Positions 7,641 through 45,356 of a DNA stretch of 64,000 nucleotides are shown piece by piece. Under the pieces are notes generated by a model. The model did not search any database, was not told the origin of the DNA, and saw only the letters and a program-made list of their open reading frames with translations. Every line of letters starts with the position of its first letter. Position 1 is the first letter of the stretch. The stretch comes from Limnohabitans sp. T6-5. GTDB lineage: Bacteria > Pseudomonadota > Gammaproteobacteria > Burkholderiales > Burkholderiaceae_C. The DNA is taken from contig NZ_NERV01000003.1 of assembly GCF_003063315.1 (NCBI RefSeq), forward strand, positions 682,001 through 746,000, read 5' to 3'. A program made the position numbers and the translations under genes.

Positions 7641-7784
7641 GTAGGTCGGTGGTCGCAGACCATGGCAATTTTTCGTGTACCGGGCATGCCCTGTATGGAC
7701 AGTCAAAGGGCAATGTCGGACTCTTCGAGTGTCGACTTGCGAAAAGACCAGGGCTTTTGTAGGTCGGTGGTCGAAGACCCCGAC
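7641..7784. repeat. REP-like family A cluster
   Basis: Two units in direct orientation begin GTAGGTCGG at 7641 and 7759. Each is followed by a mini-hairpin: GGTC-GCA-GACC in the first (whose CCGAC end is degraded) and GGTC-GAA-GACC then CCGAC in the second. Between them, 7715-7738 carries a degenerate unit in the opposite orientation (GTCGGACTC-TTC-GAGTGTCGAC). The interior also resembles the interior of the 60885 and 61035 copies. It fills the gap between two convergent genes. Confidence 0.72.
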
Positions 7785-40849: not shown

Positions 40850-41833
40850 ATGAAACCCAAGATTTTGGTCGCGTGCCCGATATTTGAAGATGTGCTGGCT
40901 GGCCTGCGCGAGCATTTTGATGTCACCGACAACCAGGCCGGTGAAAGCTGGAGCAAAAGCGAATGGATGGCGCGTTTGTCGGGCCATGTGGGTGCCTTGA
41001 CCGTGGGGGCCAACCCGGTGGATGCCCAGGTGCTGGCTGCCAACCCTCAAGTGCGCATCGTCGCCAACATGGCCGTGGGTTACAACAATTTCGATGTGCC
41101 CGCCATGACGGTAGCTGGCGTGCTGGCCACCAACACCCCTGATGTGCTGACCGAGACCACGGCTGATTTTGGCTTTGCTTTGCTCATGGCCACGGCCCGA
41201 CGCATGGCTGAGAGCGAACACTACCTGCGTGCCGGACTTTGGAAAAATTGGCGCTATGACATGTTTGCCGGGGCCGAAGTGCATGGCTCGACCATCGGCA
41301 TCATCGGCATGGGCCGCATCGGGCAGGGCATTGCCCGCCGCGCCGCGCACGGTTTTGGCATGAAGGTGATCTATCACAACCGCTCACGCCTGAGCCCCGA
41401 TCTGGAGGCCGAGTGCAAAGCCAGCTACATGAGCAAAGAAGCGCTGCTCAAGACGGCAGACCATGTGATGCTGGTGGTGCCCTACAGCGCCGAATCGCAC
41501 CACACCATTGGCGCAGCAGAACTGGCCATGATGAAACCGACCGCCACCCTGGTGAACATTGCGCGCGGCGGCATCGTGGACGATGCGGCCCTGGCGACGG
41601 CCTTGCGTGAGCAGCGCATCGCGGCGGCAGGCCTGGATGTGTTCGAGGGCGAGCCTGCCGTGCACCCTGATTTGCTCACCGTGCCCAACGTGGTGCTCAC
41701 GCCCCACATTGCCAGCGCCACGGTCAAAACGCGCCGCGCCATGGCGCAGTTGGCGGCCGACAACCTGATCACCTATTTCAGCCGTGGACAAGCCTTGACG
41801 CCTTTGAACACCGTGCCTGGGCGTGCCGCATGA
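40850..41833 (+). CDS. D-2-hydroxyacid dehydrogenase (glyoxylate/hydroxypyruvate reductase GhrB-like)
   Basis: A 327-residue NAD(P)-dependent oxidoreductase. The nucleotide-binding 'GIIGMGRIGQGIARRA' is near 147-162. The catalytic Arg lies in 'LVNIARGGIVDDAAL', the Glu in 'AAGLDVFEGEP' and the His in 'VVLTPHIASAT', so the triad is complete. It likely reduces glyoxylate or hydroxypyruvate. I chose ATG 40850; an ATG at 40829 overlapping the antiporter stop is an alternative. Its stop overlaps rmuC (ATGA). Confidence 0.92.
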   Translation: MKPKILVACPIFEDVLAGLREHFDVTDNQAGESWSKSEWMARLSGHVGALTVGANPVDAQVLAANPQVRIVANMAVGYNNFDVPAMTVAGVLATNTPDVLTETTADFGFALLMATARRMAESEHYLRAGLWKNWRYDMFAGAEVHGSTIGIIGMGRIGQGIARRAAHGFGMKVIYHNRSRLSPDLEAECKASYMSKEALLKTADHVMLVVPYSAESHHTIGAAELAMMKPTATLVNIARGGIVDDAALATALREQRIAAAGLDVFEGEPAVHPDLLTVPNVVLTPHIASATVKTRRAMAQLAADNLITYFSRGQALTPLNTVPGRAA

Positions 41834-43203
41834 ATGAGTGGGTATTGCTGGCGCTGGGGGGATTGAATCTGCTGGTGCTCCTGGTGCTGTTGCTTCGATC
41901 CCAAGCTGCACCAGACAACGGGGCGGACAAGACCGCTGAACAAACGGCCTGGCAACAGCAGCAGTTTGGTGCTTTGCAGGTGCAAACTGAGCGGTTGCAA
42001 CGAGAGCTGCGCACCGAAATCAGCCAGTCTGGTGTGCAGGGTCGGCAAGAAGCCATGCAGACGCTGACGTTGTTTCAGCAATCGCTTTTGCAACAAAGCG
42101 CTGAAGCCACCCGCACCCAAAACCAGCAGATTGACGCCTTGGCCCAACAGCTGGCCTTGCTGCAAAAAAGCCTGACCGACAGCCTGGCCCAACAGGTCAA
42201 TGCGCTGTCTGAGGCCAATGCCCGGCGCCTGACCGAGATGCGCGGCACCATGGAAACCCAGCTGGCGCAGTTGCAACAAAGCAATGCCGCCAAGCTCGAC
42301 GAAATGCGTCAGACCGTGGATGAAAAACTGCAGGCCACCTTGCAAGCCCGCTTGGGCGAGAGCTTCAAGCAAGTGGCCGACCGGCTCGAGCAGGTGCACA
42401 AAGGCCTGGGCGAAATGCACCACCTGGCGCAGGGCGTGGGCGACCTCAAACACCTGCTGACCAACGTCAAAACGCGCGGCATATTTGGCGAAGCGCAACT
42501 GGGCGCACTGCTCGAACAGGTACTCGCTCCGGAGCAATACGCCGAGCAGGTGGCCACCAAACCCGGCGACAAGAACCGCGTGGACTTTGCCATCCGCTTG
42601 CCGGGCCGCTCGGACAACGGTCAGCCCGTGTGGCTGCCGATTGACGCGAAGTTTCCCAACGAAGATTACGAGCGCCTGCTCGAAGCTCAGGGCCGCGCCG
42701 ACCCAGTGCAGGCCGAGCTGTGCGCCAGGGCATTGGAGGCGCGCATCAAGCTCGAAGCCCGGTCGATTGCCGACAAATACCTGGAGCCACCGCACACCAC
42801 CGACTTTGCGGTGATGTTTCTGCCCACCGAAGGCCTGTACGCCGAGGTACTGCGTCGTCCCGGCCTGATGGAAAGCCTGCAGCGCGACCACCGCGTGACG
42901 TTGGCCGGTCCGACCAACCTGATGGCCATGCTCAATGCGCTGCAAATGGGCTTCAGAACCCTCGCCCTTGAAAAGCGCTCCAGCGAGGTCTGGCACGTTT
43001 TGGGTGCGGTCAAGACTGAATTTGGAAAATTTGGTGATGTGCTGACCAAGGTGCGCAACCAGACCCAGACCGTGCTTAACACGCTCGACCAGGCCCAGAC
43101 CCGAAGCAATGTGTTGAACCGAGCCTTGCGGCAGGTCGATGCCTTGCCTGAGACTGCGGCACAGGCGCTGTTGCCTGGCTCGGCAGAAGAGGGCGCTGAG
43201 TGA
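41830..43203 (+). CDS. rmuC: DNA recombination protein RmuC
   Basis: A 457-residue protein with one N-terminal membrane anchor ('LALGGLNLLVLLVLLL', about 6-21), a long coiled coil rich in Gln and Leu to about residue 200, and a C-terminal RmuC domain. That domain carries 'TRGIFGEAQLGALLEQ', 'LPIDAKFPNEDYERL' and 'FLPTEGLYAEVLRRP', a PD-(D/E)XK-related fold where 'IDAKFP' corresponds to the catalytic strand. RmuC limits inversions and certain recombination events. Starts by ATGA overlap with the dehydrogenase gene and ends by GTGA overlap with the next. Confidence 0.95.
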   Translation: MNEWVLLALGGLNLLVLLVLLLRSQAAPDNGADKTAEQTAWQQQQFGALQVQTERLQRELRTEISQSGVQGRQEAMQTLTLFQQSLLQQSAEATRTQNQQIDALAQQLALLQKSLTDSLAQQVNALSEANARRLTEMRGTMETQLAQLQQSNAAKLDEMRQTVDEKLQATLQARLGESFKQVADRLEQVHKGLGEMHHLAQGVGDLKHLLTNVKTRGIFGEAQLGALLEQVLAPEQYAEQVATKPGDKNRVDFAIRLPGRSDNGQPVWLPIDAKFPNEDYERLLEAQGRADPVQAELCARALEARIKLEARSIADKYLEPPHTTDFAVMFLPTEGLYAEVLRRPGLMESLQRDHRVTLAGPTNLMAMLNALQMGFRTLALEKRSSEVWHVLGAVKTEFGKFGDVLTKVRNQTQTVLNTLDQAQTRSNVLNRALRQVDALPETAAQALLPGSAEEGAE

Positions 43204-44384
43204 GCCAAGAGCTGGCCCGCCTGATCGCAGGCCAGATTTTTTTACATGCTTGCATGGCGGGCATGCGCATGGCCACTCCATTGTTGGCCCTCAAGCAGGG
43301 CTACAGCGCCATGGCGGTGGGCGCTTTGCTCTCCTTGTTTGCCCTGACGCAGGTGTTTCTGGCCATTCCTGCCGGGCGCTACACCGATCGGCATGGCCTT
43401 AAAAAACCCCTGCGCTTCAGCATTGCCATCGCCAGCATCGGCGCCATGCTGTCGGCCATCTGGCCGGTGTTCCCGATGTTGTGCGTGAGCGCCCTGGCCT
43501 CGGGCGGCGCCACGGGCATGACCGTGATCGCCCTGCAGCGCCATGTGGGCCGTTCTGCCAAAGATGGCGTGGCGCTCAAAACTGCGTTCAGCTGGCTGTC
43601 GATCGGCCCGGCCATCTCCAACTTTTTGGGACCTGTGGTGGCGGGGCTGCTGATCGACCACGCGGGCACGCAAGCGGCCGACACCACAGGCTTTCAGGTG
43701 GCTTTTGCGGCCATGGCCTTGTTGCCGCTGGTGACGTGGTTTTGGGTGCGCCATGTCCAGGAACACCTGATCCAGCCTGCACCAGACAACGCAGCCCCAC
43801 GCAATGCACTGGACTTGCTGCGCGAGCCGCTCATGCGCCGACTCTTGATGGTCAATTGGCTGTTGTCGTCCTGCTGGGACGTGCACACCTTCGTGGTGCC
43901 CATCCTCGGGCACGAGCGGGGCTTCAGTGCCTCGGTGGTCGGTACGATTTTGGGCTCGTTTGCCATGGCCGCGGCCTTCATCCGGGTGTGCTTGCCGTGG
44001 CTGGCGCGCCATGTGCATGAGCACCAGATCATCACCTTCGCCATGGTGGCGACCGGGCTGCTGTTTGGCCTTTACCCCTGGCTACCCAACGCCTGGGCCA
44101 TGGGGGCCTGCTCGGTCACGCTGGGCCTGGTGCTGGGCAGCGTGCAGCCCATGATCATGAGCACCTTGCACCAGATCACCCCGGCCCACCGCCAGGGCGA
44201 GGCGCTGGGCCTGCGGCTCATGAGCATCAACGCGTCCAGCGTGTTGATGCCCACGCTCTTTGGCGCGGCCGGGGCCATTGCGGGCGTTGCGCCTGTGTTC
44301 TGGGTGGTGGGCACGGCAGTGGGCTGGGGCTCACTGCTGGCCTGGAAACTGCGACCGGAGCGCACCCACTCACCCTCATCGTAG
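43200..44384 (+). CDS. MFS transporter
   Basis: A 394-residue, twelve-helix transporter. The loop 'PAGRYTDRHGLKKPLRF' (about 59-75) is the MFS signature between helices 2 and 3. GTG start overlaps the rmuC stop (GTGA), so its reading is tied to rmuC. The stop codon TAG is the TAG of a REP head (GTAG at 44381-44384), so the C-terminus ('HSPSS') may have been set by insertion of that element. The substrate is unknown. Confidence 0.9.
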   Translation: MSQELARLIAGQIFLHACMAGMRMATPLLALKQGYSAMAVGALLSLFALTQVFLAIPAGRYTDRHGLKKPLRFSIAIASIGAMLSAIWPVFPMLCVSALASGGATGMTVIALQRHVGRSAKDGVALKTAFSWLSIGPAISNFLGPVVAGLLIDHAGTQAADTTGFQVAFAAMALLPLVTWFWVRHVQEHLIQPAPDNAAPRNALDLLREPLMRRLLMVNWLLSSCWDVHTFVVPILGHERGFSASVVGTILGSFAMAAAFIRVCLPWLARHVHEHQIITFAMVATGLLFGLYPWLPNAWAMGACSVTLGLVLGSVQPMIMSTLHQITPAHRQGEALGLRLMSINASSVLMPTLFGAAGAIAGVAPVFWVVGTAVGWGSLLAWKLRPERTHSPSS

Positions 44385-44472
44385 GTCGGCGGTCCAAGGC
44401 CCCGGCCAATGCGAGTGGAATGGCAGCGTCTTTTCAAGCGGCAGATGCCGGACTCTGCGAGTGCCGACCTAC
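44381..44472. repeat. REP-like family A inverted pair containing two stop codons
   Basis: The plus unit 44381-44406 is GTAGGTCGG, C, GGTC-CAA-GGCC, CCGGC. The minus unit 44447-44472 is GTAGGTCGG, C, ACTC-GCA-GAGT, CCGGC. The TAG of the left head is the stop of the MFS gene (44382-44384). The TAG of the right head is the stop of the convergent LOG-family gene (44471-44469). The 92-base element therefore is the whole intergenic region. Confidence 0.85.
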
Positions 44473-45356
44473 GAAGGCGAGGTGGCTTGGTGGCTCAATT
44501 GGTAGAAATCGCAGATGGCTTTCCAGGCGTCCTCAGGCGTATCCACGTAGCGAAATAAATGCAGGTCTTCTGCCGTGATGGTGCCTTCTTCGACCAACAC
44601 ATCCATGTTGATCAGCCGTTTCCAGTAATCCGTTCCGAACAAGAGGATGGGCACCGGACGGGCTTTGCGGGTTTGCACGAGGGTCATCACTTCAAACAGC
44701 TCGTCCAGCGTGCCAAATCCACCGGGAAAAGCCACCAATGCTTTGGCTCGCATCATGAAATGCATCTTGCGCAACGCAAAGTAATGAAACTTGAAGCTCA
44801 GATGGGGGGTGACGTAGGGGTTGGGGTTTTGCTCATGGGGCAAGGCGATGTTCAAGGCCACAGAAGGCGCGCCGGCTTCATGCGCGCCCCGGTTGGCCGC
44901 TTCCATGATGCCGGGGCCGCCGCCCGTGCAGATGAACAGTTTTTCTTCATCGGGCAGGTTGGCCGAGGAACGGGCCACCAAGCCTGCAAAAGTGCGTGCG
45001 TTTTCGTAATGCTGCGCATTGCGCACCAGGGCTTGCGCTTTGGCGATGGCGGGTGCCAGACCGCTTTGCTGGGCAAGCACAAGCTGGGCCTGAGCAGTCA
45101 ACCTGTCCGTGAACCGGGCACTGCCAAAAACCACCACGGTGTGGTCGATGTGGGCTTCGGTTTGAGCCAAATCAGGCTTGAGCATTTCCAGCTGGAAGCG
45201 GATACCCCGTGTTTCGCGCCTCAGTAAAAATTCGGGGTCGGCAAAGGCCAATCGACTTGCTTGCGGTTCCAGCCAATCGGCATCGTGAAAATCGGGTTTG
45301 GTTTCCGCCCAGGCATGGGGCAGGGACGGGGATTGGAGATCTGGGGTCGATTGCAT
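44469..45356 (-). CDS. LOG family protein / TIGR00730-type Rossmann fold (nucleotide 5'-monophosphate phosphoribohydrolase)
   Basis: A 295-residue protein. The catalytic signatures are 'GGGPGIMEAANRGAHEAG' (about 145-162) and 'FPGGFGTLDELFEVMTLVQ' (about 213-231), together the PGGxGTxxE motif of LOG-type phosphoribohydrolases that release cytokinin-like bases from nucleotides. The N-terminal 90 residues are an extension found in the longer proteobacterial members. Its stop codon lies in a REP head. Divergent neighbours are absent; efp lies upstream on the same strand. Confidence 0.9.
   Translation of the reverse strand: MQSTPDLQSPSLPHAWAETKPDFHDADWLEPQASRLAFADPEFLLRRETRGIRFQLEMLKPDLAQTEAHIDHTVVVFGSARFTDRLTAQAQLVLAQQSGLAPAIAKAQALVRNAQHYENARTFAGLVARSSANLPDEEKLFICTGGGPGIMEAANRGAHEAGAPSVALNIALPHEQNPNPYVTPHLSFKFHYFALRKMHFMMRAKALVAFPGGFGTLDELFEVMTLVQTRKARPVPILLFGTDYWKRLINMDVLVEEGTITAEDLHLFRYVDTPEDAWKAICDFYQLSHQATSPS

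Follow-up and report, generated by a model that had tools for sequence, protein, structure and literature searches.

In a 64,000-nucleotide stretch of the Limnohabitans sp. T6-5 genome (4,166,903 bases, 7 contigs), hereafter called the window, a single pair of inverted REP elements supplies the stop codons of both flanking convergent genes, an MFS transporter gene and a LOG-family gene. The pair forms a 92-bp REPIN (44381..44472, window coordinates) with its two GTAG heads facing outward, and the TAG of each head is in frame with the gene that runs into it. We regard it as likely that the REPIN, having symmetrical ends, gave both genes these in-frame stops. The principle of REP-borne TAG stops is already in print, and the window offers a tidy two-sided example.

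Two convergent genes end within the heads of one REPIN

The MFS gene (43200..44384, + strand) encodes a protein of 394 aa that matches Pfam PF07690 (E 7.8e-44), and the convergent LOG-family (Lysine_decarbox) gene (44469..45356, - strand) encodes one of 295 aa that matches PF03641 (E 3.8e-33); the identity of the neighbouring genes, RmuC and EF-P, was also confirmed by Pfam. The TAG stop of the MFS gene (44382..44384, + strand) lies in the GTAG of the left head (44381-44384), and that of the LOG gene (44469..44471, - strand) in the GTAG of the right head (44472-44469). As the gap between the stop codons measures 84 bp (44385-44468), the 92-bp element corresponds to the intergenic space plus the two heads. 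The first-pass annotation had claimed that one REP pair provides both stops and that the element is exactly the intergenic space, and both claims held, with positions exact to the base.

Both genes end in TCG TAG, in which TC is followed by the GTAG of the head (44379..44384 on the + strand for the MFS gene, where it fits the flank rule described below, and 44469..44474 on the - strand for the LOG gene). When the REPIN was deleted in silico and its flanks were joined, the MFS frame ran on for 34 codons and the LOG frame for 50 codons to the next stop. Therefore, both genes are at present terminated by the TAG triplets of the heads.

Each half of the element consists of a GTAG head and a hairpin with a C.C mismatch, of the GGTC type in the left REP (44381..44407, + strand; predicted fold -14.6 kcal/mol, z -2.3) and of the ACTC type in the right REP (44446..44472, - strand; -11.0 kcal/mol, z -2.7). 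The whole REPIN was predicted to fold into one long hairpin on the + strand (-45 kcal/mol, z -3.6), with -36.5 kcal/mol (z -2.2) for the - strand. A consensus scan at the REPIN detected no intrinsic terminator and no promoter.

The element is an ordinary REPIN of a high-copy family

The motif GTAGGTCGGY was present in 1,024 copies in the 4.17-Mb genome, compared with 70 for a reversed-pattern control. A sample of 80 stretches (L045-L084 and L198-L237) taken outside the window and amounting to 1.6 Mb, or 38% of the genome, was analysed with a simple custom codon-usage caller, which called 1,337 genes. As expected for a high-copy, mostly extragenic repeat, 415 of the 428 sampled heads were located outside called genes. 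Both halves of the window element show the GTAG head and imperfect palindrome that define GTAG-class REPs, and together they show the arrangement that defines a REPIN, with inverted REPs less than about 100 bp apart and heads outward. The pairing of GGTC and ACTC arms recurs in other copies. In 0.8 Mb plus the window, 77 inverted outward pairs were found within 200 bp, most commonly with lengths of 105-111 and 75. In the window and the first half of the sample, 157 pairs of neighbouring heads less than 200 bp apart alternated in orientation and 27 had the same direction, such alternation being typical of REPINs and REPIN arrays.

Three Y1_Tnp genes in the genome matched PF01797 above the cut-off, one of them barely. 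Two of the three adjoin GTAGGTCGG heads, one within an array, which would be the position of a RAYT gene beside its REPs. The window element is an ordinary, non-autonomous REPIN of the GTAG class. In L166 (1354-3328), a RAYT-like gene is found within a REP array and the adjacent gene has its TAG stop in a REP head. The copy number of the family was very uneven between species, as GTAGGTCGGY counts across 60 genomes of the genus, including T6-5, ranged from 1 to 2,334, with 46 of the 60 below 20 (2,334 copies in G042, 1,024 in T6-5 and 322 in G075). When stretches of T6-5 and G042 were compared, no clean pair of an empty and a filled REP site was found, the relatives being too distant; the absence of such a pair means that the insertion is one that we infer.

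Two pyrimidines (TT, CC, TC or CT) preceded 404 of the 428 sampled heads, and 86 of 100 when only the outer ends of clusters were counted. With such a flank, an in-frame insertion gives TTG, CTG, TCG or CCG followed by TAG. According to the available text of PMC8266576, the REP transposases studied cleave at CT, or at CT or CA in one of them, which would fit the pyrimidine rule loosely; in the same text, GTAG was shown to help site choice by one REP transposase. These observations suggest that GTAG is part of the element and not of its target. A CGCCTTC flanking the window element, which recurs at copies in one array (L073), was also considered as part of the element and rejected, as it can be explained by the pyrimidine-rich flank.

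In relatives, both genes mostly end with TGA or TAA, and the T6-5 proteins are not consistently shorter

The LOG comparison covered 40 relatives, the best 80 of at least 588 loci and 6 chosen genomes, whereas the MFS gene was sought in 90 genomes of the genus, matched in 88, and its C-terminus was read in the 30 best loci (T6-5 and 29 relatives). Among the best 80 of at least 588 LOG loci, 48 had a convergent MFS gene within 1.5 kb, at 226 bp or less in 47 of them and at 1,240 bp in one, and in 33 of these 48 the two genes overlap. GTAGGTC was absent within 60 bases on either side of the MFS-LOG junction in all 48, with isolated ACCTAC in two. The LOG stops in the best 80 of at least 588 loci were TGA in 53, TAA in 18 and TAG in 9 (71/80 TGA or TAA), and the MFS stops in the 48 convergent loci among them were TGA in 26, TAA in 12 and TAG in 10 (38/48 TGA or TAA). 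In G017, a REPIN of another subtype occupies the same MFS-LOG gap, and neither stop lies within a head.

The closest LOG genes found, those of G042 and G075, end at the same residue, 295, by means of a TAA with no REP at the stop, the nearest GTAGGTC being 1,037 bases further on in G042 and absent from the G075 locus; their last codons and stops, CTG TAA in G042 and CCG TAA in G075, align with TCG TAG of T6-5. Compared with the 29 relatives, of which 19 are shorter, 9 equal and one longer by 17 residues, the MFS protein is not shortened, and its three closest relatives are shorter by 4, 1 and 1 residues. Neither protein is consistently shortened. It had been proposed that the insertion may have trimmed both C-termini, with REP-free orthologues ending at the same residue through an independent stop as the observation that would refute it; this is what the LOG genes of G042 and G075 show, and an MFS protein at least as long as in 28 of 29 relatives gives the proposal no support.

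As the heads follow a pyrimidine pair and the relatives mostly use TGA or TAA, the TAG is most likely brought in by the element. The other proposal of the first-pass annotation, a GTAG-targeted insertion that favours genes already ending in TAG, was not supported for the same two reasons, nor by the rarity of TAG as a stop in T6-5 (54 of 1,337 genes in the sample).

REP heads provide part of the rare TAG stops

In the 1.6-Mb sample, exact GTAGGTCGG heads supply the TAG stops of five of the 1,337 genes. Of the 54 TAG stops, near-exact or decayed heads account for three more and a second GTAG repeat family for two, which brings the total to 10. Two consecutive genes in L061 (986-2910) end in TAG within this second family (GTAGGAGC...).

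When the distance between stops and heads was considered, 39 pairs were found at offsets from -67 to -1 (stop before the head), or 0.58 per base, and none from +1 to +60. At offset 0 there were five, about nine times the neighbouring rate (Poisson P 3e-4). Of seven genes that read into a same-strand head, five met it in the stop frame, compared with one third expected (P 0.045). In contrast, when the comparison was made with all TAG triplets, 4.5% of which lie in heads, the five of 54 TAG stops represented a twofold excess only (P 0.10). All these statistics are built on the custom gene caller and on five cases, of which those in L074 (279 bp) and L204 (truncated at the end of its stretch, score 13) are perhaps not genuine genes. 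In a further sample from G042 (295 kb, 261 genes), exact heads contained none of the 10 TAG stops, which counts against a general effect. The first-pass annotation had called for a genome-wide count of heads at TAG stops; in the sample, such heads were in excess at the exact offset and not clearly in excess over TAG triplets.

In 24 of the 44 stop-head pairs within 67 bases, the TAG of the head lies 49-67 bases past the stop, perhaps because REPs settle behind the T-tails of terminators; a REP in such a position seems to be present at 7641 in the window.

The sample contained 116 REP clusters, 49 of them between convergent genes. At these 49, four of the 98 flanks take their TAG from a REP, or seven of 98 with near-exact heads included, and none of the 49 has both stops in heads as in the window. 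One cluster in L201 is flanked by TAG stops on both sides, only one of which is inside a head. From the single-sided rates, and under the assumption of independence, 0.2-0.65 doubles are expected in the whole genome, so that the double in the window is notable and not anomalous.

Other genes and species also have REP-borne stops

Four other genes stopped by a REP were each read in the 12 best loci (T6-5 and 11 relatives). At L201 (DUF1854), all 11 relatives end at the same residue, two with a TAG in a REP or its remnant and nine with TGA or TAA, one of these nine being a TAA, in G017, that itself lies within a REP-like remnant. At L048 (LysR type), all 11 end within one residue, four of them one residue later than T6-5, and the TAG is REP-borne in G004 and G076; in the latter, TGATCAAAACGGG, which is the gene end in the REP-free G065, is located past the REP array.

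The position of the stop varied more in the other two genes. At L074 (hydrolase), a TAGGTCGG stop ten residues earlier is common to G004, G060, G064, G075 and G076, and as for the remaining relatives, G042 has the same stop as T6-5, four have TGA and one has TAA; one of the 11, G079, is 18 residues longer than T6-5. At L211 (methyltransferase), the stop is common to T6-5 and G075, nine relatives have a TGA two residues earlier and G042 stops five residues later. Degraded REPs that keep their TAG were also found at L290 and L266. REP-borne TAG stops thus recur in other genes and species, and the four comparisons indicate that some persist while the repeat decays. The lengths at these genes shift in both directions, and either shared descent or repeated insertion may account for the pattern.

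Origin of the double stop

The following course of events is the one we consider likely. A REPIN, presumably moved by a RAYT/TnpA-REP transposase, would have landed in a single event where the 3' ends of two convergent genes meet; in most of the relatives examined, these genes overlap or come close to touching. As both ends of the element read GTAG outward and heads follow two pyrimidines, an in-frame insertion gives YYG and then TAG; with the right frame on both sides, the MFS and LOG genes would each have received a clean new stop, and the native stops would then have decayed or been lost. The excess of heads in the TAG frame could reflect survivorship, if frames that read into the hairpin were selected against.

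A tentative alternative, possible though we doubt it, is that recombination at or near the REP joined a G013-like RmuC-MFS segment to a LOG gene like those of G042 and G075, in which case the two REP-borne stops may come from two one-sided events. Within 41830-45356, the nearest relative indeed switches between the MFS and LOG genes, where the REPIN lies: RmuC is closest to G013 (95%, compared with 88% for G042), as is MFS (91%, compared with 75%), whereas LOG is closest to G042 and G075 (88%, compared with 72% for G013). With different nearest relatives for its two genes, the junction may be a product of recombination. The LOG and MFS genes of both G042 and G075 lie on different contigs with other neighbours. 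However, the order RmuC-MFS-LOG-EF-P is found in other members of the genus (G013, G060 and G078), so that the adjacency is probably ancestral, and GGTC and ACTC arms are the usual partners within one REPIN. Furthermore, EF-P does not discriminate, with 97% identity to G042, G075, G060 and G078 and 96% to the G013-like G101 and G022, and the nucleotide identity windows are too noisy to place a breakpoint to the base.

That REP heads and stops are unlinked, and that the double is pure coincidence, appears improbable. The modest excess over TAG triplets, the fraction of a double expected per genome and the lack of cases in G042 would all agree with it, but chance fits poorly with the offset test, with the finding that several species share the codon position of a REP-borne TAG stop, or with the published statement, in the available text of PMC3733652, that stops of this kind are frequent.

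It is also conceivable, and in our opinion quite doubtful, that REP insertion recognises a YYG followed by TRR and lands there. Such a codon followed by a stop does occur at the residue of the head in REP-free relatives, in LOG (CTG TAA in G042 and CCG TAA in G075), at L201 (TTG TAA in G042) and at L048 (TCG TGA in G051), although other REP-free relatives have different codons at the same residue (CTT or CTC at L201, CCC at L048). Moreover, with 428 heads in the sample, a head supplies the stop of only five of the 1,337 genes; in the other 39 stop-head pairs within 67 bases, the TAG of the head lies 12-67 bases past the stop. For MFS, L211 and L074, most comparisons with REP-free relatives show a difference in position of 1-10 or more residues. 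An extended version, in which REPINs in Limnohabitans take over stops by insertion on a native YYG-TRR, both convergent stops being replaced, the proteins unchanged and the REP-born stops outliving the repeat, seems equally hard to accept. Stop targeting is the bold step in it, and selection for constant protein length, which would yield the same picture, may suffice as an explanation.

That the insertion trimmed both proteins is very improbable, since LOG and MFS have the lengths described above, even though relatives are longer at L048 (by one residue in four of 11), L211 (by five in G042) and L074 (by 18 in G079), and one MFS relative is longer by 17.

The insertion of a REPIN with symmetrical ends, which we favour, illustrates how gene ends can tolerate a repeat that carries TAG at each of its ends. 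REP heads also explain part of the rare TAG stops of the T6-5 genome. As a caution for annotation, in REP-rich genomes the last codon and the stop of some genes are repeat sequence.

Relation to known REP systems

In a limited literature search, no description was found of a single REP pair that serves two convergent genes at once, and no paper on repetitive extragenic palindromic elements in Limnohabitans. GTAG REPs often provide TAG stops, according to the available text of Di Nocera et al. (2013; PMC3733652). As described there, the GTAG class shares with the T6-5 family the GTAG head, the short palindrome, the dimers in opposite orientation and the preference for convergent and unidirectional gaps. 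The section concerned contains no count of TAG stops and no element serving both flanking genes, and Limnohabitans, Rhodoferax and Burkholderiales do not occur in the available main text.

The family also resembles the REPINs and REPtrons described with RAYT (TnpA-REP) genes in its inverted pairs with outward heads, its copy number of about 1,000 heads and the presence of Y1_Tnp genes beside heads, but its heads follow any two pyrimidines (TT, CC, TC or CT) and not CT alone. The REPs that control translation in E. coli, located within 15 nt of the stop according to the available text of PMC12306157, are similar in having a hairpin directly after the stop, which could act on the upstream mRNA here as well; in contrast to them, the stop in T6-5 is located within the REP head itself.
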